Both the position numbers and the translations under genes were made by a program. Positions 8,605 to 61,914 of a stretch of DNA of 64,000 nucleotides are shown here, in pieces (position 1 is the first letter of the stretch; every line of letters begins with the position of its first letter). Below the pieces are notes generated by a model. The model had not been told where the DNA came from and did not search any database. It saw nothing but the letters and a program-made list of their open reading frames with translations. Source of the DNA: Citrus sinensis (lineage: Eukaryota > Streptophyta > Magnoliopsida > Sapindales > Rutaceae); contig NC_068558.1 of the NCBI RefSeq assembly GCF_022201045.2, positions 45,969,001 through 46,033,000 of the forward strand. The letters run 5' to 3'.

Positions 8605-11600
8605 TTTCTCCACAGAGTTTCCACTATATTATCACTAACTAAACTACTTACTCTAAAAATCAAATTTCTATGGGATCGAACAAAACCAAAATCAATTGGC
8701 TGAATTCACTTGGTAGAAGAAGTTGAAAAGCGAAAACCAGACGCAGAACTGATTGGAAGGAAACAATAAAAAATAAAAAATGAAGACAACGAAGATCAAT
8801 ACGACGTCGCTAGCCGGTTACCAAAGTTGAAACGACGACGTTATAGCTTAGCTTATTGTTTATTTAATTTTCATCATTCCTTGTTGTAAATATTGATTTA
8901 AGTCAATCCCTATCTTATATGTAATGTAAAATTCATCCTCTCAAATAAACAGTATGTAAAAGTGTATAAGATAAGAGATCCTTGATTTAATGATTTTGTC
9001 CGACATATTTGGACTTAATTACTGATACCGAGTAAAAATTTGATTGCTATAGACGTGTTTAATAAAAAAATATATAATTATGAAATAAAAATAAATAACA
9101 TACGATAAATATAATTTTTAAATAAAAATAATTAACATATATTAATTTTTTTATTATATAAGTAATAGATCAATTCAATTTAATTTTTTAATTATAATAA
9201 GTAGTATCAATTAAATATTTTAATAATATAATTTACTAAACAAGCCTAAGATTAACATAATTATATAACCTTATAAGCAGTATAAAATGCTTGACATACA
9301 CAATTCAATAATTCAAGCATTATACATCATGACATTAACGTTGGCTATATTAACATCCTATTATTGCATGATGATAAAATTGACAAGCTTATTCGAATTC
9401 CAACCCATTAGTCGAATTCATTCAACAAACAAAGTCCAGTCACAAACTTAGTGTAGGTGACAAATCTTCCCACCTGACAGCTGCTGTGACAACAAAGCAT
9501 CATGAAATGTTGACGCGTCGACATAATTAATATCTTCTGTGAAATGAGGATGGTGTTGTAAACCAAATTATGGGTGCAAACGCCAAATACTGTCAATAAA
9601 CAAAAGCTAAAGAGACGTGGCCCAGATGTAAATTCTTAGTCACTTAGGCCGGGTTTAAAAAGCCCATGACCAGGTCGCATTTTTTATCTATAAAAAAAAA
9701 ATTATATTTTTAATATTATTTTATTTTTTTGTGATTTTATAATTTTTAAATTTATTTCAATGAAATTAGAAATAAAAAATAAACTTTAAATGTTTAAAAC
9801 TTTACATATATGTAATAGATGGCTAAATAAATATAATTATTTAAAATAATATATATTTTATAATTTTTTTTAATAAAATTCGAATTTCAAGCCAAATCCG
9901 AGACTTATCGAGTGATGTCTATGACTGATCTGACTTCATCCCTGGGTCTGGTATGGGTCAAAATTAGGCAAGTATTTGTGACACCCCTAAAAGAGAGTCA
10001 ATTGAAAATAAATAAGCTAATTATAAGGTAAGTTGTGCAGAGTTTCTATTAATGGATTTGTCTTTACGTTTCAATCCTTCATGTATTATAAAAAATAAGA
10101 TTTAAATTATAAAATGGAAGGTCATCTATTTATAATAAACTAATGCCTCTCAGTTTATGTCTAAGAGGCATTATATTATTTGTTACTACAATTCAATCGG
10201 AGAGTTATATGTGTAACATGCCATTAATTTAGTTGTGTGCAACATACAGTCAATTTCGTTAAGTGCAATTTGCAGCACACCCTTTGAATTGATGGGTGTG
10301 TTTCACACATGCCGGATAGACAATCCATAATAGATGAACATTAAATCAAGACGATCAAGCCTCTGTGCAAAGCAGATTGTGTTAGAAGTCAAGCAGAACT
10401 ACGAGGCAAATATCATTAGAGCAAAGAATCGTTCATTGCTCGTCAACAATACAAGCTTCCAAGCTTCGAGAGCAACTTCATCAAGTATCTTCGAACAACA
10501 CTCTCAGCTTTATTCAATCTCTAATGGAGCCTTTTTGTAATTTCATTTTAATGGAAAAATAATTTGATAGTTATACTATATATATGATATAATATATATG
10601 CATTTGCAGCCAATCGGATTATTTTTCTTCTTAGAGTGATACTCGTGTCTAATTTATTTATATCCCCCTGCATCTTAATTTGTTGGATATATGTATGTAT
10701 GTACATAATTTTTTTTTCATCAACATGTACCATTTTTTATAATGTTTTACAACACATTTGATTAAAACTGACAATGTTTTAACTCATTATTTATAATTTC
10801 TGCTTATTATCAAAATCGTTATAATCCTTTCTAACACAACAAATTAAAAGCAAAATTTTGTAGCATGCTCGTATAACTCTATAGTTTAATAGTGTTATAA
10901 TATATAGTTATTTGCTAAGCACAACATCGTATGTTCGAAACATGTCAAAAGAAGAAATAAATCAATGAATAAAGCGAAACTCCTTCTTTGATTTCCTATA
11001 GAATAGATGATCATTTGCGTAAGTTTCGGTGGGCTAGTCCGCAAGATAGTTTCATTAAACCGTGTAAATCCCGCCATCAAAAAAAGGAAGAGTGTGAATC
11101 CCACACATTGCTTGGCGATACTGATGAGCCCACAACACTTGCCCAGCAGGCCAGCAGGATAATTAGACTATATTATAATCGCCTGCCACTAATATAATTT
11201 GATCGATAACTTTGTTAGTCGTTGGTACTTGCCCAATTAACGAAAAGCCGTGCTGCCCGCGCATCACCTAATTATTTTATATATATAGAGAGAGAGGGAA
11301 GATTGCAATTTCCTAACTAATAATTATTTTATTCACCTTACATACATTTCTCACATGCACAAAAACAAGAATGCTATATAAATTTATTATGTTTTTTAAT
11401 ATCATTTAAAATATAAAAATCTTTTAGTTCTCTTAAAATAATAAATGGGTTCCTTAAGAAATTCAGATCATCTAATTTTTTTACAGACGCTAATTAGTAA
11501 TTTATGAAAATAAAAATAATAAACGAATACACCTAAATTGTATATGACTTAATGTATGTTGTCATAAATTTCTTAAATGACCAAAAAAAGAAAAATCTGT

Positions 11601-11915
11601 TTCCTTGGTTGGCAGGATTTATATGCCGGACGGATAACCTGTTTTCATTTTTCCATATTAATCAGTTCCGTAATTAAGTTTCCTTTGTAACGCCTCTAGA
11701 AGCCGAGTACAGGAAATCAGGAATCGCCATGGAATATTCTAAAAAAAGGGAAAGTGCTCTTGAAGGTGCCTCAAAAACTTTAGCGCACAGCTGGCGTCAC
11801 TCAACACGCCAGCCATTCCACCGGCACCAACCCCCTGTGAAAATAGCATTAAAAAAACATTAAAATGCCACAATTTTTTAATTTTCTTCGACCAATAGTA
11901 ACCCATCTACTCCGC
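8605..11915. other. Intergenic region between VPS51 and bZIP53
   Basis: The first ~180 bases are the likely VPS51 leader and promoter. The rest is AT-rich with no gene I can support. It contains a possible small transposon relic around 9049-9247, whose ends AGACGTGTTTAAT and ATTTACTAAACAAGCCT are roughly inverted. It also contains a short perfect inverted repeat at 10141-10173. Short open frames here lack codon structure. Confidence 0.5.
10141..10173. repeat. Short perfect hairpin
   Basis: TAATGCCTCT at 10141-10150 is exactly inverted as AGAGGCATTA at 10164-10173, with a 13-base loop. It may be the remains of a tiny foldback element. No poly-U tract or adjacent gene end suggests a function. 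Confidence 0.45.
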
Positions 11916-11921
11916 TATAAA
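11916..11921 (+). promoter_or_regulatory. TATA box of bZIP53
   Basis: TATAAA in the context GCTATAAAAGCCCC lies about 530 bases before the bZIP53 start codon. A CCAAT motif lies about 20 bases upstream of it. This implies transcription starting near 11945-11955 and a leader of ~500 bases, which fits the long uORF-bearing leaders of group S1 bZIP genes. Confidence 0.6.
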
Positions 11922-12173
11922 AGCCCCACTACATGGCTTCATTAACCTTCTTTCGCCTCGCTCAAGGATTAGCTCGCTTTGACAATAGATCGTCTTTTGC
12001 GTTTCGTCTTTGTTTCGTTCTTGCTAAGCAACAGCTAAGTTATCTTTTTCTCTCTTTCTTTTCCTTTTATCCTCGCTCCTAAATAGTCCTTGAATCTTTA
12101 GATCTGATCCAAATCCAGGTTTTTTTCTTTGGTTTTTTACTTTCAATCGCTGCCTTCTGTTGGATCTGGACTT

Positions 12174-12225
12174 ATGCGAAGTTAGGGTTCTGAAAACAAC
12201 ACCAATGATTCTAGATTTTCTATGA
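12174..12225 (+). other. Two short upstream ORFs before the SC-uORF
   Basis: A three-codon ORF (MRS, 12174-12185) and a six-codon ORF (MILDFL, 12205-12225) precede the sucrose-control uORF. The second ends in a TGA at 12223-12225 that overlaps the start codon of the conserved uORF as ATGA. Overlapping upstream ORFs are a known trait of bZIP11-type leaders. Here they may set how many ribosomes reach the conserved peptide start. Confidence 0.6.
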
Positions 12226-12308
12226 GTTATTCCGTCCTTATGAAGAGAATTAGAATTCTTCACTCTTTCTCGGTTGTATTTCTCTACTGGTTCTACGTGT
12301 TTTCATGA
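12222..12308 (+). CDS. Sucrose-control peptide uORF of the S1 bZIP
   Basis: This 28-residue upstream ORF lies 141 bases before the main start. Its C-terminal part reads HSFSVVFLYWFYVFS followed by TGA, which is the core of the sucrose-control (SC) peptide conserved in bZIP1, 2, 11, 44 and 53 leaders. In that family the nascent peptide stalls ribosomes when sucrose is high and lowers translation of the main ORF. The main ORF is in another frame. An internal methionine at codon 7 could also start it. The match is seen directly in the sequence, while repression by sucrose here is inferred from the family. Confidence 0.93.
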   Translation: MSYSVLMKRIRILHSFSVVFLYWFYVFS

Positions 12309-12449
12309 ATTAGAAATCTCAATTCTCTCGTTTGATCACGCTTTCTAGTATCCAATTATTTTAATCCATTTTCTTGTTTGCAACCCTCGATTTCTTAATT
12401 GTAAGTAGTTAAATTTATTAAACTAGAAAAAAAAAAACAAAACAAATTT

Positions 12450-12887
12450 ATGGCTTCAATTCAAAGACAAGGAAGTTCCGGCTCCGATAGCGACCCGCGA
12501 TATGCGAACGTTGACGAGCGGAAAAGGAAGAGGATGATATCGAACCGTGAATCGGCCAGGAGGTCAAGGATGAAGAAACAGAAGCAGATGGAGGATTTGG
12601 TCAATGAAATCAACCATTTGGAAAGCGCCAATGCCATGCTTAAGCAAAACATTGATTCATCTGTCCAACGCTATGTTGAAATGGAGTCCGCCAACAACAT
12701 TCTGAGGGTTCAAGCTATGGAGCTGACTGATCGTTTGCGCTCCTTGAACTCTGTCCTCCAGATATGGGCTGAGATCAGTGGCATTAACGTGGAGATTCCT
12801 GAGATTCCAGACCCTCTTATGAAACCTTGGCAGCTTCCCTGTCCAATGCAGCCACTCGTGGCTTCTGCCGATATGTTGCAGGATTAG
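12450..12887 (+). CDS. bZIP53: Group S1 bZIP transcription factor, bZIP53-like
   Basis: This intronless 145-residue protein carries a basic region [17 protein letters not shown] with the N-x7-R signature (N32, R40), followed by a long leucine/methionine zipper. Its C-terminal [19 protein letters not shown] and final SADML agree with Arabidopsis bZIP53 (At3g62420) rather than bZIP11 or bZIP44. S1 factors heterodimerise with group C bZIPs and bind ACGT/ACTCAT elements. bZIP53 controls seed-maturation and amino-acid (proline, asparagine) genes in energy starvation. The leader holds the SC-uORF. Its neighbour CP12 is also the neighbour in Arabidopsis (At3g62410). Confidence 0.95.
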
Positions 12888-15005: not shown

Positions 15006-15398
15006 TCAATCTTCATAAGTGCGGCACTCATCGGTCTCTGGGTTGTCCTTACAGTAAGCCTCCAAAGGATCGGAATCCTTCTTCCTCTCTCTAGCATGGC
15101 TGGCCGCGGCACTCAGCTCCTCCACCTCGTCCCATGCAGCAGCACACTCGCCACTAGCAGGGTCCCCCTCGCACGCCTCCTCTGCACTCTTGATGCTTTG
15201 CTCCACCTTCTCTGAGATTCTATCGGGAGCAGCTCTCAGGGGTTGCATGTGCATGCGCCCTGTTCTAAACTGAGCGGGCCTTTTCCTTGATGGGTTGTTG
15301 AGCCACAGAGACCTGCTGGGTTGAACCTTTGACTTCGGGTCTGTGATTTTGGCAAAGACGCTGGGAGTTGAGAGATTGACACCGGCTATTGTTGCCAT
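15006..15398 (-). CDS. CP12: Calvin cycle protein CP12, chloroplast precursor
   Basis: CP12 is a small disordered redox linker that binds GAPDH and phosphoribulokinase into an inactive complex in the dark and releases them in the light. The 130-residue precursor starts MATIAGVNL with a Ser/Arg-rich transit peptide to about residue 55. The mature part has both disulphide pairs, C76/C85 and C116/C125, the conserved AAAWDEVEELSAAASHAR and the C-terminal YCKDNPETDECRTYED that docks on GAPDH. The frame stays open upstream, but MATIAG is the family's start and lies ~85 bases below a TATA motif. There is no intron. Both Arabidopsis CP12-1 (next to CGEP) and CP12-2 (next to bZIP53) have the neighbours seen here. 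Confidence 0.96.
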   Translation of the reverse strand: MATIAGVNLSTPSVFAKITDPKSKVQPSRSLWLNNPSRKRPAQFRTGRMHMQPLRAAPDRISEKVEQSIKSAEEACEGDPASGECAAAWDEVEELSAAASHARERKKDSDPLEAYCKDNPETDECRTYED

Positions 15399-15481
15399 TC
15401 TCGCCTCTTGCTCTTCTTCTATTTTGTTGTTTTGGCTTTGGTAATACGGTCTATTCGGAAATGATACCGTGATGACAGCAG

Positions 15482-15488
15482 ATTTATA
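15482..15488 (-). promoter_or_regulatory. TATA box of CP12
   Basis: On the minus strand this reads TATAAAT, about 85 bases above the CP12 start codon. It predicts a leader of roughly 50-60 bases and argues against use of the more upstream in-frame ATG at 15584. Confidence 0.5.
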
Positions 15489-16552
15489 CAATTGAAGCCC
15501 ATAACGCTTCGTGAACACATATTTCTTATCATATGACGGCCAATTGTAGACTGGCACGTAAGACTGGCTTGCAGATATTTTCAAAGAATATCAAACTTTC
15601 GTGTTGCTACTGTTTAACCATGCCTTTCGAGGGGGAAAAATAGTAAGAAATAAAAAGGGCGAAAAAAAGATTATTACATTTTTAGTTTTTGAAGATAAAA
15701 CATGGCAAATTATAAAGCTAGATACCTACGCTATTTTTAATTATCGGGGTAAATAAAGAGCGTGGGAAATATCAAAAAAGGGCAAAGGCCAGACACTTGA
15801 AGGGGCTGTTTGATCAATTCAATTCTATAGCCCGTAGTAGAAATACATGACACTACCAGAGTAGTATTAGTGGGCGGTGGTTACAATTTCTCTCAACCAA
15901 AGAGCCTTTGGATATAAATAAATAAATCAATAAATGAAAAAAAAAAAAAATCTTTGATTTTTATAGAAGAAGTGAAAGGGAAGTTCTTCTGAAAAATGAA
16001 GTTACAGCTATTTGGCATTAGCCTGTTTCTCTCTCAACACATGCCTGGTGTTCTCGGTATCACCGCGCTACTTCAGTACTTCTACATTCATGGGCTAGTT
16101 GGGTGGCATAATTTATGTTTCGTAGTGATCATTTTACATGTTATTTGTTAATAGATTCAGAAAGATTTTCTCATCTGGAAAAAAAAAAAGATAGAGAAAG
16201 ATTTTGACATTAAAATATATATATATATACAAAGTCAACTAACGCAACACATGATAGATTGAGTAATGTTTTCACATAAAAAATAAAGTTAATTAATACG
16301 TAATATGTTAAAAATGATTATTAACACATTATTTAAAATACAAATTTATATATCAACTATGTACATATAGCATTACTCATCACTTTCAAAGAATATATCC
16401 GCAGCAATCATGATTAAATATGATATTGTTTAAGATGGGAGAATTTAATTTTCGCAATCATACATGGTACACACATAATGAAGTTATAAATAAGTGTTAT
16501 TACAATCCGTTGTAAATTTGTTAAAATTACTGTGGGATCAGAGCTGGATTTA

Positions 16553-31978: not shown

Positions 31979-32084
31979 CAGTGGCCAATGCCATGGCAAA
32001 AAACAAAGTACTGAAACGGCCAAAACACCCTCCTTGCGTTCTCCTTCTCCTCTTCCTCTCACAATCACCAAGTAATAAATAATA

Positions 32085-33837
32085 ATGGCCTTGTCGCTCT
32101 GCTTCACTAAAACACTCCTCTTCTTCTTCATAATCTCGGCCATTCCGATTGCTTATATCATCTCTATCGAGCTAGCTATAGCCATGGCCAAGCCGGCCAC
32201 CCATGTGTATCAATACCACAGCCCCAGCTTCTTGTGTGAGACCGCCAAGTGGGACGACGTAGGCCGTCGATTTCTCGTCTCCTTTTTAGATGGAGGAGTT
32301 GGTCAGGTCTTGGTGCCCGACGAATATTCACCAGGGACTGTTCTAGAAGAAGTCAAACTGGTCAAAGAGGATGACGTGGTCGGCAATGCTACCATGGGGA
32401 TCGCCGTTGACCGGCCTCGGAATCGGCTCCTTGTGGCGTTTACCGATGTTTTAGGAAATAAATACAGTGCGCTTGCCGCTTATGATTTGTCTACTTGGAA
32501 GCGTTTGTTTCTCACCCAGCTCAGTGGCAAAAGTAAGTGTAGAAAATGAAAATGAAAATGAAAATCATTACTCCTTTGTTTGTTACTGCAAATCATGAGC
32601 TTTCAGAAGTTGACTTTCTAAGTATGGAGCCACTGTTCGAAAAGTGATTAACAAATCCGTCCAATTACATAATACATACGTACGTACACCACGGTAATTG
32701 TAATCAACTTCAGCGATGGATAATATTGGATGTCTTGTTATGACTTCTTTCTCTATGAACAGGGCCGGTCCACCATTTCATTGAAGAATATTCTAGTTGA
32801 AGTTAATAAGTTAACTATGTTCATGTGAAATCTGTTTTACAGCCATAAAATGATAAGATAGCGCTGGCTGTCCCAACACTTGAAGAAGTGCATGCTGGCT
32901 CATAAAAATTTGCTCCGCCTTTTTTAAGTGAATATTGATTTCAAAAATATTCTGATTGATCTTAAGCCTAAAATTTATTGATTTACAACAAAAGTATCCT
33001 GCGAACATGGCCACGTATATTATTAGTTTATGTGATCGTTTAGTTTAATTAGTGATTGAAATTTGTGTTTTTTAGTTTTCCAACTTATTTCTCATTTTAA
33101 TGAAAAATGAGAGATATCTTATTATTATTAGAATGGACTTGTTATACATACACATATAGTGATAACTAATAATGGTGTAATTAATCAGGTCATGAACAAC
33201 AACACCTTGTTACATGCATTGTAGCATTAATTTGGTATTTGATAAATCGACATTGCATATATATATATGTGGTGCAGGTGAGGAGAAATCTACGGCGGAT
33301 GATATAGCGGTTGATGCAGAAGGTAATGCATACGTCACCGATGTCGTATCCAGTAAAATTTGGAAGGTAGGGGTGGAGGGTCAGTTGTTATCGATCATTA
33401 GAAGCCCACTGTTTACTGCAAAAGAGTGGTACAAAAACGTGTTTGGCCTAAACGGCATTGTATACCATCCGGATGGGTTCTTGATAGTCATTCACATGTG
33501 CAGTGGCAATTTGTTCAAGATTGACATTCGCAAAGAAGAGGAAGAAGTTAAGTTAATCGAGCTAAGAGGAGGCAGCTCATTGTCACTTGGAGATGGTCTT
33601 GCGCTGCTGTCTCCAACTAAGCTTGTGGTAGCAGGAAATCCTTATCCTTCAGCTCGATTGGTGGAGAGCTCCGATGGATGGGAAACGGCTTCGGTCGTGG
33701 CCAAATTTAATGGGCCTACTCATCGGGTGGCCACAGCTGCTACTGTGAAAGATGGTAGGGTGTACCTGAGTCATTTGCTTGGCCTGGGATTCCCCAACAC
33801 CAAGAAGAAACATCTTCTCGTCGAGGCTGTTTTCTAA
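32085..33837 (+). CDS. SMP-30/phosphotriesterase-like propeller protein, copy A
   Basis: Two exons (32085-32532 and 33278-33837) join as K-S-E-E to give 335 residues. The N-terminus has a hydrophobic signal anchor (TLLFFFIISAIPIAYIIS). The rest reads as a six-bladed beta-propeller with motifs ADDIAVDAEGNAYVTDV, GLNGIVYHPDGFLIV and KLVVAGNP. It belongs to the plant group annotated as calcium-dependent phosphotriesterase superfamily (At2g47370 is the Arabidopsis neighbour of COX5C). Substrate and activity are unknown. It is one of three tandem copies (with 35004-36077, broken, and 36838-38029) and is about three quarters identical to copy C by eye. Confidence 0.88.
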
Positions 33838-35003
33838 AACTTGGAAACACAGCTGAGCTCCTCAACTCAACTATGTCGTTAATTATGACGCTATGTTGCT
33901 TTACCCTTTGAAGGAGAAGAATTCTTTTGGATTTTGTATTATTGATTGTTCCACTGAACATAGTTAACTTATTTGGTGATGATGTACTACACAGTGTTCT
34001 AAGTTTCAGATTTTTTTTTAAAACTGTTTTCTTCTTTGCATGGAGAAGTTTATTAGTGTTAATTGTGATTGTTTGGTTTTAGTTATTGTTATTATTTTTT
34101 TTAGCAAACCTCAACGCCAGGAGTGAAATTTATTAAATCAAATACTCTTGAGTGATATAAGTTGTAGTCATTATTATTTTAAGCCACTTACAATTTTACA
34201 TAATTTTGTGTTGATGAATATAAACATGTTTCAATCAAATAAGTGAAATTGAATTTGAGATTGAATTGAGGTCATAAGGTTGAGTTTTGACAGCACTCTA
34301 AACATTTTTTTTCTCACAAATGTGAGCAGAAATAAATATCTTCTTAAATATCAGTGAAAGTTTTTCTTTCACAAATTGAATAAGAATAAATATCTTCTTA
34401 AGTATTATGAAAGTAGATTGCCAAATCTTAGTAGATTTCTTATTAAAATGTAGTAACCAATAAGATAAAAAAAGAAGTTGAAAAAAGGGTTATTAAGTAC
34501 TACTTATATTACTCACGAATTTGGGTTCAAATGATTTTTTTTAATTATTAGGATCGGTAATTATTGAATAAAAATAATATTTAATTCAGTATATTATTAT
34601 AAATAGATAATTAACATAAAATGATGAAAAATTGAGGACAGATCATTTCAATTATGAAGGTTGCATGTTAAATTAGGATCAAGATTGTCTTCTGATCTGA
34701 TCATGTTATGAGCAAATCAATTAATTATTAATTAATTGTTAATAAATAAAAAAAATAAAAAAAGTTAAAATTTTCCCATACACTAATATTAAAAAATACA
34801 TGATAGAAAATCTTTAAAAGATCAGTATAACTCACGTTAGGAGAGGATAATGTTTCGTTAAATTATTAATTTTTTTTTTAAATCCCATATATAATTGCTG
34901 AATAGCATGGAGGAGTCAACGCCTGCCGGTTGGAGTAACAGCTAATCCCTTTCCTCAGTGTTACCCGCGAGCTTCTCACTCTCACTTCTTCTTTTGGCTA
35001 ATA
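33838..35003. other. Spacer between propeller copies A and B
   Basis: This is AT-rich and without a gene. A ~35-base near-direct repeat with AATAAATATCTTCTTAA lies at 34328-34402. Nothing else is recognised. Confidence 0.4.
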
Positions 35004-36077
35004 ATGGCTCTCAGTTTGCCCCATAAAAACAATCCTGTTATTTTCCTTCGTCTCAGCCATTCCCTTTGCCTGCATCATTTCTCTCCTGCCACCCGCGTGT
35101 ACTACTACGGCAGTTCCGGCTTTTTCCGTGAATGCGCCAGGGGGGATGACTCCAACCGTCGATTCATTGTCTCCTTTGCAGAGGGAGGAATTGGTCTGGT
35201 CTCAGTACCCGAACCTGATGAATGATGATTACTCACCGGGAACTGTTCTAGATGAAGTCACGCTAGTCAAAGACGTCGACTTGGCTGGTAATTCCTCGGT
35301 CAGTATCTTCATTGACTGGCTTAGGAATCGGTTCCCTGTGGCTGTCACCGGCGCTTGCAGCTTATGATCTTCAACGTGGACACTTTTGTGTCTCACCCAA
35401 CAAAAGGGCCCAACTGAATCTTTAAATTGAAATAAACAGATAATATACACATTTTATTGTTGTTGTGGTGTTTCTTTTCACTTAAAATTTGTTAGTTCAG
35501 CTGGTGGCAAACTGACGGGATTCCTTTGCGGATGACGTAGCAGTTGATTCAAAGAGGTAATGCCTCTGTTACTGATGTATTGGGCAATAAAATTACGAAG
35601 GTAGGGGTTGATAGTAATTGGTAAGTTACCAAGAGACCATTAGAAGCCCGCTCTTTGATCCAAAAGAATGGTACAAACGCAGGACTGGGTAGCGGAATTG
35701 TTTATCATCCAGATGGGTTCTTGATTGTCGTTCACCATTCAAGTGGCAGTTTGTTTAAGATTAAGGTTAAAATTGACACAGGCAGCAAGAGAGATGAAGA
35801 AATTAAGTTAATTAAGGTAGTTGGAGGCCCATTAACGTTTGGAGAGAGACTGGGGATACTGTCTCCAAGAAAGCTTGTGGTAGCAGGGATTCCTACTGCT
35901 AGATTGTTGAAGAGCTCTGATGGCTGGGAAACTGCTTCTGTCATCGGCAAATTAAGCGCGCCTGCTCATCGGCTGCCGACGGCGGTAGCTGTGAAAGATG
36001 AAAGAGTGTATATTAACTAAATATATGGCCTGGGATATCCCAAGATGATGCATGCCCTCGTCGAGGCCATTTTCTAA
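35004..36077 (+). pseudogene. Broken propeller gene, copy B
   Basis: It starts with MALSLPHKNNPVIFL and shows the family text YYYGSSGFFRECARGDDSNRRFIVSF, so it is collinear with copies A and C. It is not functional: the signal anchor is shortened, a small insertion around 35215 shifts the frame and leads to a stop, the exon-1/intron junction region has decayed, the second-exon part (35506-36077) is frameshifted near its start, and an in-frame TAA follows VYIN shortly before the normal end (ALVEAIF). The long open stretch at 35655-36020 is the remnant of the second exon. Confidence 0.85.
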
Positions 36078-36634
36078 TTTTGGGGCCTCTAAGGGTTTAA
36101 TTTGTGTTGTACTGGATAAATGGTGTTCTCATTTCTCAATTTTAATTCCTTATCTCATTATTTGCAAACATAGCAACACAATATGGAGAAACGAAAAAAT
36201 AAAACAATTTAACTACAGATAAAAAAAAAGTACATTATAAGATAACAATTTGTTTTTGTTTGTTGTGTTGTTTTACCTAAATTTTGTACTATTTTCAGTA
36301 CACATATATAATTATTCAAAATTAAACAAAAGTGTGATCCACAATTTATAAAAGTTTCAAAAGCAACGATAGTCCAAATTGGAGCACAATAAATTTATTC
36401 ACAAGAGCCAAATCAACAAAGCATAGTAATTTAAATAAAATTATAAAAAAATAGAAATCATATAAAGTAACTCAATAATGGAGAAAGGGACAAAACGAAC
36501 ATCCAAACAAACAATATAAAGAGCCAATAATATGTCATTTAGTTATTTAATTTAGGGGGATCCTTATTACTATGTCACTTATTTATTTAATTTATGATTC
36601 CAAATACCCAGATGCCATTCGTTTGTTTCGTCTG

Positions 36635-36640
36635 TATAAA
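36635..36640 (+). promoter_or_regulatory. TATA box of propeller gene C
   Basis: TATAAA in GTCTGTATAAAATTTT lies 198 bases before the start codon at 36838. Confidence 0.4.
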
Positions 36641-36837
36641 ATTTTTCCCTGTTAAGTCACAAGTCACAACGCCCTATCTACACAGCAACAACACCCACGG
36701 GATACCGGCTTACCAAACACTAACTCCCCATCTAACATTGCGACCAAACCAAAGGAAGCGGCTATTGTCAAAAGCCGAAGCCCAACCTCTCTCTGATTTG
36801 TTTATGTTGTGTCTCTCACCCTCACAAAGACAAAGCA

Positions 36838-38029
36838 ATGGCGCTCTCACTTTGCTCCGCCAAATCGCTACTGTTCTTCTTCGTAATCTCAGCCATTCCC
36901 GTCGCCTACATAATCTCTCAAGAGAGAGCCAATCCTGCCACCCACGTGTACCACTACCACAGTTCCAGCTTCTTTCGCGAGTGCGCCAAGTGGGATGACT
37001 CCGGCCGTCGATTCATCGTCTCCTTTTTAGACGGAGGAATCGGTCAGGTCGCTGTACCCGATGATTACCCACCCGGGACTGTTCTAGAAGAGGTCACGCT
37101 GGTCAAAGACCTCGAATTGACTGGCAATGGGTCGCTTGGCCTCGTCCTTGACCATCCTAGGAATCGTCTCCTCGTGGTCGCTGCAGACGTGTTTGGAAAT
37201 AAATACAGCGCGGTGGCCGCTTACGATTTGTCCACGTGGAACCGTCTATTCCTTACCCAACTCAGTGGTCCAAGTAATTAATAATTATAGTATTTCAATT
37301 TTAATTTCAAACATCCTCATTTATTTATCTATCCTTGCAATAATAAATATGCTCATAATCTTATGGATGCGACATTGCGATTTGCGAATTTCCAGCAGAC
37401 ACAGATCCAGTTCACATATTTTCTTTTGAAAAATCGAACACTTCAAAATCTTAGATGTTGTTGCAGGTGATGGGAAATCATGTGCAGACGATGTAACAGT
37501 TGATGCAGAAGGTAATGCATATGTTACCGATGTTACAGGCAGTAAAATTTGGAAGGTAGGGGTGAAGGGTGAGTTCCTATCCATCATTAGTAGCCCTCTC
37601 TTTACTCCCAAAGAGTGGTACAAGAACTTAGTTGGATTAAACGGAATCGTATACCATCCAGATGGGTTCTTGATAGTTATTCACACCTTCAGTGGCAATT
37701 TGTTTAAGATTGATATTGTCGACGGCGTCGGCGAGGGTGAGGAGATTAAGCTAATTAGGGTAGCTGGCGGTCCCTTGTCATTTGGAGATGGTCTAGAGCT
37801 CTTGTCTCCGACTAAGCTTGTAGTTGCAGGGAACCCTTCTGCCAGATTGGTGGAGAGTTCTGATGGGTGGGAGACAGCCGCCGTAGTCGCCAAATTTAGC
37901 GGGCCTGTTCACCGCTTGGCCACAGCTGCAACTGTAAAAGATGGTAGGGTGTATCTTAACCACATGCTTGGCTTTGGATACCCCAAGAAGAAGCATGCCC
38001 TAGTTGAGGCAGTGTTTTCTAATAATTGA
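36838..38029 (+). CDS. SMP-30/phosphotriesterase-like propeller protein, copy C
   Basis: Two exons (36838-37273 and 37467-38029) join in frame at P-S-D-G for 332 residues. The intron position is the same as in copy A, but the intron is 193 bases here against 745 there. An N-terminal signal anchor (LLFFFVISAIPVAYIIS) precedes the propeller motifs CADDVTVDAEGNAYVTDV, GLNGIVYHPDGFLIVIH and SPTKLVVAGNPSARLVESS. It ends HALVEAVFSNN. A secretory or membrane-anchored place in the cell is likely from the anchor. Enzymatic role is unknown. Confidence 0.88.
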
Positions 38030-39619: not shown

Positions 39620-41334
39620 TTAAAGTTTAATATATTTTGCTCCATGTTCCATGTTTCCTTTAGAAACCTCAGTTTTTGAATTGGAAAAAAAAAAAAAAAT
39701 CTATTGGAGCAAAAGAATATATTGATTTCTCTTAAAAAAAGATTTGGTGGTTATCAACAGTCTTTGTAAGTCATAAACACTACCGCTTTAACAACGGGTT
39801 TCTAACCTGATATCCTAACCGTCAGATGGTTACAACGGCTGCTGCTATTTGGATCAAATCCAACTTAGCAGCGGCCCTTTACATTATCACAGGAAGCAAA
39901 AGGAAGAAACAACTTCACTTGCAGCCGGAGGAAAGAAATATGCAATCCGTTGGACTGCGAAGGAGGTTATATAAGTAAAAGTAAGAGCTCTCTGTTTACT
40001 ATCTTGAGCCTCTATTGCCTACTACTTTTTATAGTTACTAACGGTTTGTTTTCTCGTAGGACTGGGAAAGGAATCAGAATTTGGAATAGGAGTGATGGAT
40101 GATGTTTGGAGAATAGAAATCAAATATGCGAGTCTTATATATTTTTGCTATTAAAGAAAGAGAATTTAATTTTCATGACCTCTTTATTTTATCCAATTAA
40201 AATTTCATAATCTTTAAATTGCCCTCAATTAAGTTTTGTCACTTTTGTCGCTTTTATATTTTGATCCCTACAAAATTTTTATAATATTTACAAATAGGTC
40301 ATTTATTATTTATTATTATTAGTTGTAATAATACTAATGCTAATAATAATAATTATCATCATCATTCATTATTATTATTGTTATTTATTAATGTCATTAT
40401 TATTGTATTAATAATAATAATATTATTAAAATTTATTAATTTTACTATTATTATTATTTTGAATAATAATTATAATCACAACTACAACAACAACAACAAT
40501 AATAATAATAATAATTAAGGTCATTTTAGTAACTTATAATAATATGTTTCTATTCCAAGATAGAATAAACACATAAATGGTAATACATTTCATATCCCAT
40601 TCTAATTCCTACAAATAAAATAAATAATTTATTCTAATTCCTATTCGCTATTCTAATTTCAGTTTATTCTAATTACTGATTAACAAATGCACTATAAATT
40701 TTTTTTTCCCATAAGCAAAAATGATAAAAGAAGGATATTATCATTATGTCAATGAATAATTTTTTAATACATGATTTTTTTATTATAACTTTTATATTTT
40801 TATTTTTTATTTAATAGAAATTATAATAAAAAATTTTGACCTAAATTATAATAAAAGCCTATTCTACTCTTAAATTATATAAGTTTAATTTAATCCTTTA
40901 AATTAAAAAAAATAAATGGATTATAACAAAGATAATAATATTTTTATTAATTTAATATTTTATATATTTAAGATAATTAATTGATAAAAGGATAATATCC
41001 TAAAAGAACGAAAAGAAAGTAAAAAAAACTAGAGCGACACTACTAGCATTACCTTGCCGTCTATTCTATTATGTTGGTTTTTTTTTTTTTTTTTCAAAAT
41101 GAGGAAAAAATTTGCCACAATTTGAGGCCACTTTCCTCTCCCCTGAAGAGTCTAAAACCATCCACATCAAGTCTTCTCCGCTGAGTGTGGTTGCCACTTC
41201 ATTTTGTTAAAGTTTATTCATTTCTTTATATGCATGGCTACTTAACACCATCGAAACACAACTGTCTTTTGACTTTTAATTGAGGCAATTAGTGTCTCTT
41301 AAATCTAAGTGAGAAAGCAAGGAAGCATTGATTG
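39620..41334. other. Spacer and TBL6 promoter
   Basis: No gene is seen. The segment 40040-40692 looks like another diverged MITE: left GGTTTGTTTTCTCGTAGG and inverted right GCATTTGTTAATCAGTAA are alike, and inside lie ATT/AAT microsatellites (40303-40515). The last ~200 bases are the probable TBL6 promoter and leader. They include a 17-codon uORF at 41230-41283 that I do not recognise as conserved. Confidence 0.45.
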
Positions 41335-43687
41335 ATGGAGAGACAGAGGAGTTTCTCTCTGAAATCCACGAGATTTGTTGTGTTTTCTTTCACAATCACT
41401 TCTTCTATCATCTTTTTAACATTCTTTTCTTTCCGGGTCATCAAATTCACTCCTTTCATTAACCAAGAAACCCATTTTCAGTTGAGCAAACCCGCCGTCA
41501 ATGTAAGTCTGAAACCCTTAACTGTCCAGACCTTGACTGGTTCAAGAAGAAATTTCACGGCACCAAATGCGAAAAACTTAATCTTGATTGATACACCTGT
41601 AAATAAACTTGATAAAACTTCTGGGTTCAGTAACTTGTCAGTTTCTGGGGACATTCAGAAAGAGAAAAACGACACTCAAGCGCCCAAAGATGAAGCAAGC
41701 AAAGGTGACGGTCTAAATGTTACTAGCTTAAGTAGAGGTGAAGAGAGTGTACCGGCACCTTCATTAATTGAAGTTCAAAGCAATGAGAGGCTTCAAGAAA
41801 AGAAGATTGGAGCAGCTTCAGTTGAGAAAATTGAACTTCCCAGTGATCAACAGATCAAAAAGGAGAATGTTAGAGCAGCTTCAGTCCAAAAAGTTGAAAG
41901 GGCAAGTAATAAGAGAATTGAAGAGAAGAAGACAAGAGACTGTGACATTACCAACGGGAGGTGGGCATACGATGAAAGCTATCCTTTATACACAAATACT
42001 ACCTGTCCTTTTATTGATGAGGGTTTCAATTGTATGAGCAATGGGAGACTAGATAAACACTACATTAAGTGGAAATGGCAACCACACGATTGTGACATAC
42101 CGAGGTATTTATTATATTTTTTATTTACGCTTGATTTTGCGTACTTAATTGGAATTGCAATATTTAGTGGTGAATGTTTAATGACGTAGTCAATCTGAAT
42201 TTTTTGAGACTCTTTTTAGTTTAGGAATAGAAGCATGAAATGGAACTTTGATTATTTGAGTTCTATGGGCGATTCAATTATAGGTTCAATGCAACCAAAA
42301 TGCTGGAATTGATCCGAGGTAAAAGGCTGGTTTTTGTGGGCGATTCAATTAATAGAAATCAATGGGAATCGATGCTGTGCATGTTATTCGGAGCTGTTAG
42401 AGATCCAAGGAAGGTCTATGAGACCCATGGACGAAGAATCACAAAAGAGAAGGGAAATTATTGTTTCAAATTTGTGGTATAATGCAAAGATGGGATGTTT
42501 ACTTACTTTTTGGGATTGAGACCTGCTTATACTTGAAATATATAAATTTGGTCTTAATTATGCAGGATTATAAATGTACAGTTGAATATTATGTCAGCCA
42601 TTTCTTAGTTCATGAGGGCAAGGCAAGGGTAGGGCAGAAGCGGGTGCAGACATTAAGAATTGATTCTATTGATCATGGATCATCAAGATGGAGAGGAGCT
42701 GATATCTTGATTTTCAACACTGCTCATTGGTGGTCTCACTACAAAACAAAAGCTGGGTTAGTTCCTTTTAATGTGAAAAGCTTTAAACCCTAGCCATTGT
42801 GTGATAGATGTTGCATTGGTTCAATTTTTTTCTCCTAAGCTATGAAGTTCAGTTTAGATCTTGGGTCTTAAGAAAGCATGTCAAGTTGTCCTTTTGCTTA
42901 ATTCTGTAGACATGGTCATACTCCAAGTCAAGGGATTGACTGAATATAGTGTTTAGCATAAGCTGAATAATAGAACAATCACAGGATCATTTGAGTACAG
43001 AAAACAATTTCCGTTCCTTCTTAATAAGCAAATGATGTAATGTGTGTATACACGCTTATTAAAAGTAATGATGTAATGAGCGTATACACGTATATTAAAA
43101 ACTCTCCATGGTTATTCATACCTCTGCTGACATGTTACAGGATTAACTATTACCAGGAAGGAGATCAAGTGCTTCCCCGACTTGATGTCTTCACAGCTTT
43201 TAAAAGAGCGCTGATGACTTGGGCTTCATGGGTTGATAAACGCATCAATCCAAGGAAAACCCAAATTTTCTTTCGAAATTCAGCGCCTTCCCATTTCAGG
43301 TTTTCCTTTACGATGCCAAAACTATGATATTTCTGATCTCATAATATCAGTTTCTGAGTTGTATATGACTTATTTCACAGGGGAGGTCAATGGAATGCTG
43401 GTGGCCACTGTGCAGAAGCTACCCAACCCCTTAATGAAATCTCAGGTTTCAGCTACCCAGAGAAGAATGTCATCATAGAAGATGTGATAAAGCAGATGAG
43501 AACTCCTGTGACACTCTTGAATATAACTAGTTTGTCAGAGTATAGGATAGATGGTCATCCATCCACATATGGAAGAAATAAACGCTACTCTTCAAACATT
43601 CAAGACTGCAGCCATTGGTGTCTTCCTGGTGTTCCTGATACTTGGAACGAACTTTTATATTTCCAGTTGCAATCTAAAAAAGAATAA
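41335..43687 (+). CDS. TBL6: TRICHOME BIREFRINGENCE-LIKE protein, TBL6-like
   Basis: TBL proteins are Golgi type II membrane enzymes that O-acetylate cell-wall polysaccharides. Five exons (41335-42104, 42284-42476, 42566-42756, 43141-43299 and 43381-43687) give 539 residues. An N-terminal anchor (FSFTITSSIIFLTFFSF) and a long variable stem precede the cysteine-rich TBL domain, which starts at CDITNGRWAYDESYPLY. The GDS esterase motif is at ~275-277 (RLVFVGDSINRNQWES). The DxxH motif is D513-H516 (QDCSHWCLPGVPDTWNELL). The stem has near-repeats of the type KKENVRAASVQKVE. TBL6 (At3g62390) is next to COX5C-2 in Arabidopsis, supporting this name. The substrate is not known. The start is ATG 41335. 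Confidence 0.92.
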
Positions 43688-52814: not shown

Positions 52815-54635
52815 TTATCGAAACTTGTAATTTAGAAATGGTCTTCCTCTTTCTCTAGAGAACTTCCAAACTGAGAGCGAATGAATTGGTGTTCCCTTCC
52901 ACCCAACGATTAGGCTCTTCCCATTCTTGTCAAGTGTGCAAGAACTCCCACAAGCAAGCTGTTTAAGAACCAAATTAGCCTGGTACAAACTTTGGTCACT
53001 CAATCCAATTTCCACCATTCTAAATCTTGAAAAGAATGCTCTCCAGACGTCCATCTTCACATTTCTTACAGTTCTCTCAGTTCCCTCCATAGCTACAACG
53101 TTGCAGATTCCACTGTTAAATATGGCTTCCATCGCCGTTCTTGTCTCCGTATTCTTTTCCAAGCAAATCTCCAGAGCATCAAAATATGCACTATAGAAGA
53201 ACAAGGTTTCAATGAAACGATTGACAAATGATGGTGAATTGTGATTTGCTTCGACTTCAATGACCACCATGAGAGATGGATTTAGCTTTTTGATCACTCC
53301 CAATAGATTCTCCAAGCAACTAGGACATGAGATCATTTTCCTCAACATCAATGGACAGTAGACAATCAATGATTCGTCATTCCTAATCTCGAAAAGTTGT
53401 TCCTTGATCTCTAGAAAATTCGTTACACAAACAACACTGAATTGAAAAGGCAAGTTCAAGGACTCAGCAAAGCTTGCCAAGCTCTTACCGGTCACTTCTA
53501 CTTCTTCTTTATTCCCAAACGCAACAGCAGTTAATTTAAGAAGCTGAATGGGGCGTTGCTCGCGCTCTGCAAGAGCCTGCATTAAGGATGTCCATTGAAC
53601 TCCACACCTGATTTCAAAATCGAGTATATGTATCTTACTTGCATTTCCAACATTTTCTATCATGGCTTGGGCTCCTGTCAAGTACACGACCTGATGAAAT
53701 GGAAGACGCTGGTAGCATATAAGGAATACAGGATTGATTCCCAATCCGTGATCAATTAAAGTCATTCCATTTCCAATTCCACCCAATTCCTCCTTTGCTG
53801 TGAAGTTTCCAGTTTCTCTATCAATTCTCTCTCGAAGAGCTGCCGCAAAATTGAAAACAATTCTTTGGACAGGATTTGCTCTCGCTGCTGCAGTCCATTC
53901 ACAACGCGAGAGCAATCTGCTTGCGCGTTCAAATTGCTGGTACCCCACCTTCTCTGCTGCGGCTAGAAGAAGGTGGACTAATTCAACATCTCTTGTTTCT
54001 TCTTCAGACAGGCCCGGCAGCCCGTAGCCAAAAGGATGCATGACCATGGAAAGGTCATCATAACTCTGATCGAAGAAGTGTACATACCTTGCTCCGGCGA
54101 CCCTCAAGATATCTTCCGTTGACAGTTTCTTGCTGCCTCCCGCATTGCTTTCATTTCTCGTGTAGCTGCCGGACAGGTTTCCCTTCAATTTCTTGAACCC
54201 ACCCGCATAATTACTTAGGAGTTCAAGAGATGATAATGCAAATGGTTCCTTGACAGGTTTGATTTCTTGGTCATGACTGGTTTGTACGTCTTTGAGTTTT
54301 GGCATCTCTGGGGAATGAGATGTTTGGAAAACAAAATTGGCATGCAATTCGTTCAATAACAAATCATTTGATTTGTTTTGTTGCAGCAAGTGACGTTGTT
54401 CCTCGAGCAAAGTGGGTACTTTCTTGGCTGAATTCTCTTCTTGATAGGCGCCGAGTTGAGAACAAAGAGGAGGGCTAATCTCTCCCAACCCGTCCATCGA
54501 AAACATCTGGTTCTGCTTCTGGTTTTGTTCAATACCGGCTTCGTCTTTATGATAATCTTCAAGAATATCACTATAACGGCCTTGGATTTCACTGAAATCA
54601 AATGATGATGTGGAAGAGAACAAAATATTTGCCAT
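52815..54635 (-). CDS. GRAS-domain transcriptional regulator (DELLA-related clade)
   Basis: An intronless 606-residue protein with a C-terminal GRAS domain from ~215 to the end. Leucine-heptad I contains VELVHLLLAAAEKVGYQQFERASRL, the VHIID motif appears as IHILDFE, and the SAW motif as VGWKGTPIHSLSVWKF. The N-terminal third is polar and variable and has no DELLA or VHYNP motif, so gibberellin control through GID1 is not expected even though such proteins are often called DELLA- or RGL-like. LSTEDILRVAGARYVHF before the domain is a feature of this clade. The role is not known to me. Confidence 0.9.
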   Translation of the reverse strand: MANILFSSTSSFDFSEIQGRYSDILEDYHKDEAGIEQNQKQNQMFSMDGLGEISPPLCSQLGAYQEENSAKKVPTLLEEQRHLLQQNKSNDLLLNELHANFVFQTSHSPEMPKLKDVQTSHDQEIKPVKEPFALSSLELLSNYAGGFKKLKGNLSGSYTRNESNAGGSKKLSTEDILRVAGARYVHFFDQSYDDLSMVMHPFGYGLPGLSEEETRDVELVHLLLAAAEKVGYQQFERASRLLSRCEWTAAARANPVQRIVFNFAAALRERIDRETGNFTAKEELGGIGNGMTLIDHGLGINPVFLICYQRLPFHQVVYLTGAQAMIENVGNASKIHILDFEIRCGVQWTSLMQALAEREQRPIQLLKLTAVAFGNKEEVEVTGKSLASFAESLNLPFQFSVVCVTNFLEIKEQLFEIRNDESLIVYCPLMLRKMISCPSCLENLLGVIKKLNPSLMVVIEVEANHNSPSFVNRFIETLFFYSAYFDALEICLEKNTETRTAMEAIFNSGICNVVAMEGTERTVRNVKMDVWRAFFSRFRMVEIGLSDQSLYQANLVLKQLACGSSCTLDKNGKSLIVGWKGTPIHSLSVWKFSRERGRPFLNYKFR

Positions 54636-56726
54636 ATTAGGTGGGAAGTGATCGGCGAATTTACGCTTAAACAGAGTTAATATGATTAGCTAGTTCAATA
54701 TCGACGCAAAGATTTGGATCCTTGGGACATTGCTTTTATCATATATCAAATTGAAAATAAAGAATTGATACGGCTAGGATGGCAACTCTGATGGTGACAT
54801 TTGGATTCATTTTTTTAAGGCAGCCGGGGAAACTAATCGATGTTCCCAACATATGAAGTGCAAAAGCGCTTTGAGTTGAATAAAGATTTGGAGTTAACAA
54901 AACTGTGCCACGACTCGTATAGATGCTCGCAAACAAAAGAAAGGTTCCAGATAAAGGATGACAAAAAATGTTTAAGAAACTGGTATTTTATACATACATA
55001 CATACATACATATTTAAAATACAAAAAATATAGACTTCAAGCACATAGAAAATTGTATTTTTTTTATCTGTTAGTATTTTAAAATCTGCAATTTTTTTTT
55101 CTGGCATTCTCATTTTATTAAAGTAAGGATGTTTTTACTAGAAAATTATGTTAATTGTCAGCTATAAGTAAAGGAGAAGATGTGGATCTGAAAAAATCTT
55201 GATCCGTGCATTAAAAAATGCAAATCCAGATTTTCAAACTTAGACTCTGTGTGGATCCAAATCTGGATCCGGATCCAAATCTGGATCCGGATGCAAATGC
55301 ATCCAAAAATTCGAATATCTGGATCCACATTATTTTTAATTAAATATTTATTAAATTAAAATTATATGAAAAAATATATAAGTTAAATGAAAAAAATAAT
55401 AGAATTAATTAAAAAATATAGAAGTTAAATTAAATTAACAAATATATCAGGATCCGCATTATGTTATGTAGATTTGTGGTGTTTTTATAATTTTATTTGT
55501 GGATTTGTGGTGGTGCTAGATTTGGATTTATGTTATTCTTGATGTTTGATTGATGTCGTGACATTTTTATTTGTGAATTTATTGTATAATATTCTAGGTA
55601 TTGAATTGTTGATTGTTGAATTATGATTTGATTTTATTTGATATTATTAGGTAAATTGTTGAATTTTAAATTATTAAATTTTAATTTATGCAAATCCAGA
55701 TATCTAGGATATCTACCCGCAATCTGTGTGGATATTACCCGCATTTGGATCCACGAAAAATATATGCGGATCCGGATCTAAAAATGAGTGTTATAAAGAT
55801 TTTAGAGGTGTGTCAACAGCTCCACTCATTTAATAATTCAAACTTCACCAAGGGTCGCATTCTCTAAATTGAATTTTAGCCATGGTACATTATTCTAAGT
55901 AGTTATAACTGAAAGGATTCAATTGTTGTGGGCCGTGTGCCCTTGTGCCTTTTAGTTATGGATTGTATGTAACATACATCAACCTAAAAGTTGTATTAGA
56001 TAAGTTAAATATGATTTTAGTGTCAAATACTTTTTAGTTATTGGGTACAACTCTTGGGTTCTTATAAGTTCCAATTTTATATAATTTATTCATAATCTAG
56101 TACTTGTTGTATTATCCTTTAAATTTATTTTTAACAATTTGTGATTTTCTAATAATTTAGCGTTTGTTTTTTTAATATATTTCTTTTTTTATTTTCTTCT
56201 ACAATTTTCGGCACTAGTTGTGATCCCAAGTGCCTGCATCAGCACCTACGGCGAAGAAGAAGCACAGTCATGTGAAGCTACAACTCGGCCAAGAATTTTA
56301 CATGAGTTGGAGAAGTCGCAAGAGAATCTATAATTCGTTGATTTCAAGGCTCTATCACTCTCATGAAATGCTATATGTGATGGTACAGAACTGAAATTTA
56401 TAGCATTCATTTTTCTTTATGCTCTTTTATTTTTCTTCTCTCTTTGTTATCACATTCCTTTCTCCAGATAATTGATTAACTAGTTGCATTTATTCTTTAC
56501 CATATCCCCGGTAAACATGCCCTATCATTTACTAAAAAGGAACAATTAAAGAATTTCTTGCTTTTATTTATTATTGTCCTTAACGGCTCTATGATTGGTT
56601 TATGTATAGAGAGAGATTAATCATAGAATATCAATGAATATAACATGTGGTATACAACAATTAAGCAAGGAATACAATATTGACAATTTGTCATTAACCA
56701 GCAGCAGCACAATAATTTTTTTTTTA

Positions 56727-60718: not shown

Positions 60719-61914
60719 ATGGATGATTCTCTCTCTCCAAAATTGGACACACAGTCAGAGGTTTCTGAGCCCCAAGCAGAAACTCATCAGGCTTCTTCTA
60801 AAAGAAGGTGGGTTGTTGGCTACTCTTTTGGTTGTGTTCTTGTCTTTTCCCGTTAATTTCATCAGATTAAAGAAGGCAATTAAGTTGAAAGCTATTTTTC
60901 TTGAGCATTAATGATTTTGAGTCCCTATATCCATGTAGCTAAGCTAAGGTAAGAGATTTTGTTGTGGGCTCTTATAGGAAGGTGACTGAGAAGACTGTTG
61001 TTAAAGTGAAGATTGGAGAAAATCCTGGGAAGCTAAAGAACGAAGGGCCACCTTCTGATTTTTGGTCTTGGAGGAAATATGGACAAAAGCCCATCAAAGG
61101 ATCTCCCTATCCCAGGTTTCAACTTCTTTTTTCTTATTAAAAACAAAAAAGAAAAACAAATTTCTCCATGATGTGGATAATTTCACACCTTTCTGCTGCT
61201 CTTCTCTCCCAATTCTCTAAAATCAAAGATGTGTTTCGGGGGTCAAATTGGATTTTCATTACCCATTTGGTGCCACATCAAGATGTTTTGAAGTGGATTT
61301 TGCCACTTAATTGCAGGGGCTACTACAGGTGCAGCACATCAAAAGGTTGTTCAGCCAAGAAACAAGTAGAGAGATGCAGAACAGATGCTTCAATGCTCAT
61401 CATCACCTACACCTCTAGCCATAACCATCCATGTCCTGATCTGCACACAATTAATCTGACAAAACAATCAAAAGAAACACCCCAAAATCATCAACCCACT
61501 GGCACTGAGTTTCAGGACCACCACCCCACGTCTGCTCCTACACAAGAACAGCAGCTGCCACAAGAAGAAGAGAAACAAAATGAACCACCCATAATCACCA
61601 CCCCCACTGCTGAAGATTCAAATGAAGATCATTTCCATTACTTACAATCACCCATAAGGTGTCCTCAAGATATCATAATTAGCCAAGAAGACCCCTTTAC
61701 AGGGAATCTAGAGAAACCCAATGAAACACTGAATCTTCTCTTGGATGAAGAACCGGTCTCTTATCAAAATCTCATGGCTTTTTCAACACCAAAATCAGAA
61801 GAAAATGACTTCTTTGATGAGCTTGGAGAACTGCCCAGTACGTCGTCAGTTTTCACTAGCTTCATGAGAAGCAATGATCTTTTCGATGAAAGGATTCCTG
61901 TTGTCCCTTCTTGA
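60719..61914 (+). CDS. WRKY transcription factor, group IIe-like
   Basis: Three exons (60719-60807, 60978-61115 and 61317-61914) give 274 residues. The single WRKY domain has WRKYGQK at 61-67 in the context [20 protein letters not shown] and a C-x5-C-x23-H-x-H zinc finger (CSTSKGC ... HNH). The second intron falls at the conserved PR|GYYR site. The domain resembles WRKY65/WRKY69-type group IIe proteins. The C-terminal half is Pro/Gln/Glu-rich with acidic ends typical of an activation region. It should bind W-boxes. Its target process is unknown. Confidence 0.92.

Follow-up and report, generated by a model that had tools for sequence, protein, structure and literature searches.

The window considered here, that is, the whole 64-kb stretch of DNA that was analysed, contains on its forward strand an uninterrupted open reading frame (ORF) for a bZIP53-type protein of 145 residues, preceded by several small upstream frames (uORFs), one of which carries the residues of the sucrose-control (SC) peptide (Table 1). 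That the main ORF encodes a bZIP domain is a direct observation, with Pfam matches to PF00170 (bZIP_1, 8e-12) and PF07716 (bZIP_2, 3.6e-10). Among solved structures (E up to 0.01), three chains were matched, ATF-4 and two CREB entries, all of them non-plant. No relatives of the main ORF were confirmed in a single scan of viral contigs or in one of prokaryotic genome contigs, which gave 4 and 32 pattern-matching stretches, respectively.

Table 1. Positions of the features discussed in the text, numbered from the first nucleotide of the window.
Feature	Position	Strand	Details
TATA box candidate TATAAA	11916-11921	+	No other TATA[AT]A match in 11500-12450
Minimal uORF (MRS, stop)	12174-12185	+	ATG enumeration
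6-codon uORF (MILDFL, stop)	12205-12225	+	TGA overlaps the ATG of the SC uORF (ATGA, 12222-12225)
SC uORF	12222-12308	+	28 codons plus TGA, MSYSVLMKRIRILHSFSVVFLYWFYVFS and stop; frame listing; four SIRT residues spaced as in PMC4960570
Second in-frame ATG of the SC uORF	12240-12242	+	Would yield a 22-residue form; ATG enumeration
C-terminal stretch SFSVVFLYWFYVFS, presumed stalling sequence	12264-12305	+	Stop TGA at 12306-12308; four-residue pattern plus stop present nowhere else in the six window frames
2-codon uORF (MN, stop)	12305-12313	+	ATG overlaps the stop of the SC uORF (ATGA, 12305-12308)
Main ORF, bZIP53 type	12450-12887	+	145 amino acids, uninterrupted; Pfam bZIP_1 and bZIP_2
CP12-domain ORF, stop-to-stop	15006-15590	-	Pfam CP12 1.6e-26, residues 124-192
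PMR5N ORF	41332-42189		Pfam 7e-24
GRAS protein ORF	52815-54689		Pfam 4.9e-82
WRKY domain ORF	61141-61914		Pfam 3.2e-13

Assignment within group S1 was made by pairwise identity to five Arabidopsis S1 proteins. AtbZIP53 was the best of these five references, with 64% identity over 144 aligned positions, against 44, 41, 37 and 36% for bZIP44, bZIP2, bZIP11 and bZIP1, respectively, over 111-144 positions. The next downstream ORF of at least 110 codons in the stop-to-stop list lies on the opposite strand to the bZIP ORF and encodes a CP12 domain. In Arabidopsis, CP12-2 is At3g62410 (PMC5447874) and bZIP53 is At3g62420 (PMC2075485). Since these locus numbers are consecutive, the CP12 neighbour is consistent with the Arabidopsis CP12-2/bZIP53 pair, adjacency being read from the numbers. 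The pairwise identities and this neighbour together support the identification of the main ORF as a probable orthologue of bZIP53.

Elsewhere in the window the gene content is ordinary. Four of the ten other ORFs scanned gave Pfam matches (CP12, PMR5N, GRAS and WRKY), and the last three ORFs form a normal plant gene neighbourhood. Three tandem look-alike ORF regions were noticed by eye at 32079-38029 (about 32079-33837, 35005-36020 and 36736-38029); judged in the same way, they are perhaps tandem paralogues, and the middle one (35005-36020) appears more degraded. The ORF at 37430-38026, the sole one scanned among these look-alikes, had no Pfam match. Across the whole window, Rfam at gathering thresholds returned no match, and ARAGORN found neither tRNA nor tmRNA.

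Upstream of the bZIP ORF, the TATA box candidate suggests a transcription start near 11945-11950 and hence a leader some 500 nt long, in agreement with a review in which the leaders of S1 bZIP genes are described as unusually long (PMC8795868). An ATG at 11933, upstream of this putative start, opens a 49-codon frame that extends to 12082 and would represent a further uORF if transcription starts earlier. No purine occupies position -3 of the upstream ATGs at 12174, 12205, 12222, 12240 and 12305, nor of the main ATG, and because of this, initiation at both ATGs of the SC uORF may be leaky. An RNA-structure switch was also considered and is not supported, as the predicted folding of 12160-12470 is no more stable than that of shuffled sequences (52 of 100 shuffles at least as good; z 0.16).

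The SC uORF ends 141 nt before the start of the bZIP ORF. A 28-codon uORF had been claimed for this place in the initial annotation, and its coordinates, strand and length were confirmed on re-reading, as were the C-terminal letters HSFSVVFLYWFYVFS. The four essential SC residues and the spacing of the stop codon are present and, like the frame itself, can be read directly from the DNA. In AtbZIP11, Ser29, Ser31, Leu35 and Tyr39 are thought to be essential for sucrose-induced translational repression (PMC4960570). These correspond to S15, S17, L21 and Y25 of the SC uORF, with an offset of 14 throughout. The same paper describes the position of the termination codon as invariable among angiosperm SC uORFs (PMC4960570). 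Here the stop comes three residues after Tyr25, which is the angiosperm arrangement. The AtbZIP11 SC uORF has 42 residues and likewise ends three residues past Tyr39. Repression is nevertheless seen with gymnosperm uORFs in which the two serines are missing and the stop lies elsewhere (PMC4960570), so that the four residues plus stop do not mark function in every case.

Searches with the uORF peptide itself gave little. It had no Pfam match at E 0.001, and its letter strings found no match in literature text, the published alignments standing in figures. Comparison with solved structures (E up to 10) returned nothing but an antibody fragment (one chain, E 0.36), which was taken as chance. A separate observation concerns an imperfect direct repeat of 23 nt, 12247-12269 versus 12307-12329, in which 18 of 23 positions are identical and the spacing of 60 nt is in-frame. 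The second copy, whose first base falls in the uORF stop codon, gives by visual reading IRNLNSLV and a stop versus IRILHSFSV in the uORF. This level of matching was reached in 2 of 300 simulated downstream stretches, a weak, after-the-fact signal, and the repeat is possibly the trace of an internal duplication.

Sucrose repression by such uORFs has been documented in several plants, and the family role that had been claimed for this frame, an SC peptide repressing the main ORF under high sucrose, agrees with that literature. The five Arabidopsis S1 genes, including bZIP53, belong to homology group 1 of conserved uORFs (PMC2075485; PMC3426882), and according to the review cited above, sucrose downregulates the translation of all five (PMC8795868). 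Purifying selection on peptide frames has been reported for uORF homology groups in general (PMC2075485). In two independent assays in bombarded Arabidopsis leaves, the activity of a barley bZIP53 uORF-reporter fusion fell as sucrose rose (PMC12148973). Repression of the tobacco tbz17 gene by sucrose was lost when the SC start codon was changed and the second Met codon was converted into a stop (PMC3310857), and edits in the strawberry SC uORF raised both reporter translation and fruit sugar (PMC7470447). By homology with these genes, sugar regulation would be expected of the citrus bZIP53 gene as well.

As to mechanism, ribosomes reportedly stall at the stop codon of the SC uORF, to judge by the title of a 2017 study by Yamashita. 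A stall at this point would place codon 28 in the P site, which is the end of the codon range, 25-28, in which the initial annotation had proposed to look for it. As a sign of such stalling, degradome ends at -16 from the stop have been described (PMC9305500). The frame is very probably the SC uORF, of homology group 1, of a plant bZIP53 orthologue, whose nascent peptide would stall ribosomes at the uORF stop under high sucrose and thereby repress bZIP53. By analogy with the family, the frame would be transcribed and translated, and sucrose dependence, stalling and repression may be predicted on the same ground. Scanning ribosomes would translate the 28-codon SC frame or, starting at the second ATG, its 22-codon form. 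Under high sucrose, the nascent C-terminus SFSVVFLYWFYVFS, to which a stalling role is attributed from the family, would arrest ribosomes terminating at the UGA (12306), so that few would get as far as the main ATG (12450) and the yield of bZIP53 would be low. Under low sucrose, ribosomes would skip the uORF or translate it to its end, and bZIP53 would be produced, driving low-energy metabolism.

The SC uORF begins and ends in a stop-start overlap (ATGA), which allows an extension of this scheme, by which translation of the uORF and escape from it would depend on termination-reinitiation besides leaky scanning. This dependence seems unlikely. If true, it would connect the sucrose switch with the control of reinitiation, for instance by TOR-eIF3h, which has been reported to promote reinitiation on uORF-containing mRNAs, including that of bZIP11 (PMC11062462).

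It might also be argued that repression of the main ORF by the uORF is purely passive, a matter of trapping scanning ribosomes, and that sucrose is not sensed in this species. The leader ATGs lacking a purine at -3 fit such a role, and the four further upstream ATGs that follow the putative transcription start (12174, 12205, 12240 and 12305) would lower translation of the main ORF without any peptide effect. However, a passive uORF needs no exact peptide, whereas here the four SIRT residues and the position of the stop are kept, and the related tobacco and barley leaders do respond to sucrose (PMC3310857; PMC12148973). A purely passive role is thus considered very unlikely.

Another alternative places the SC frame outside the mature mRNA, through a downstream transcription start or splicing, which would render it inactive in this gene. 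The transcription start is a putative position predicted from the TATA box candidate, and in Arabidopsis the bZIP53 uORF was located not more than 2 kb upstream of the locus annotated for the main ORF (table footnote in PMC2075485). Against this, transcription directed by the TATA box at 11916 would begin some 275 nt ahead of the SC uORF, and an intact peptide frame would be unexpected if it were not translated. Exclusion of the frame from the mRNA is regarded as highly improbable.

Resemblance by chance was assessed with first-order Markov simulations. Across all six reading frames, the window contains a single S-x-S-x3-L-x3-Y-x3-stop match, which starts at 12264; this pattern averaged 0.3 occurrences per window in 60 simulated windows of equal size, none of which contained the longer pattern SFSxxFLYWFY. 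Among 20,000 simulated versions of the putative leader (11948-12449), only three had the four-residue pattern at the end of a frame opened by an ATG, a count that can only be raised by the fact that positions open to any residue could also match stops. Short ATG frames are indeed common around the SC uORF (18 of at least 20 amino acids on both strands between 11500 and 13800), but with these simulations, and with an SC-like frame sitting upstream of just the type of gene known to carry the SC peptide, the idea of a chance open frame has a negligible probability and is effectively refuted already.

The SC uORF is best described as a clean, ordinary copy of a published switch, usual for angiosperm bZIP53 genes and belonging to a family that is already known and catalogued as homology group 1. 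It adds no new principle. Its value lies in marking out a bZIP53 gene whose translation is probably controlled by sucrose, which is useful for annotation and also for leader editing of the kind that altered the sugar content of strawberry (PMC7470447).

The presence of an SC uORF is not automatic across the S1 family, since a survey detected S1 uORFs in only part of the genes: 5 of 10 in Populus tomentosa, 3 of 7 in tomato and 2 of 5 in maize, and none in apple or potato (PMC11120861). On the other hand, a review of S1 uORFs includes apple among the species covered (PMC8795868), at variance with the survey. The same review gives the length of the SC peptide as 28 residues, which is also the length found here.

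Among known systems, the orthologous main ORF and the conserved uORF are shared with the bZIP53 genes of Arabidopsis and barley, a likeness seen at the level of the gene. A second Met codon within the SC uORF is found here as in tobacco tbz17 (PMC3310857), and two start codons are likewise present in the SC uORF of strawberry FvebZIPs1.1 (PMC7470447). The strawberry uORF has a conserved Arg pair (PMC7470447), whereas the basic cluster found here, K8-R9-I10-R11, contains no adjacent RR. With the SC uORF of AtbZIP11 (uORF2, homology group 1), the frame has in common the positions and spacing of the Ser, Ser, Leu and Tyr residues, the S1 bZIP downstream and the long leader. The two differ in length, as the AtbZIP11 numbering up to Tyr39 implies a frame of more than 28 codons, and in order, the SC uORF being the second small leader frame in AtbZIP11 but the third here if transcription starts near 11948.
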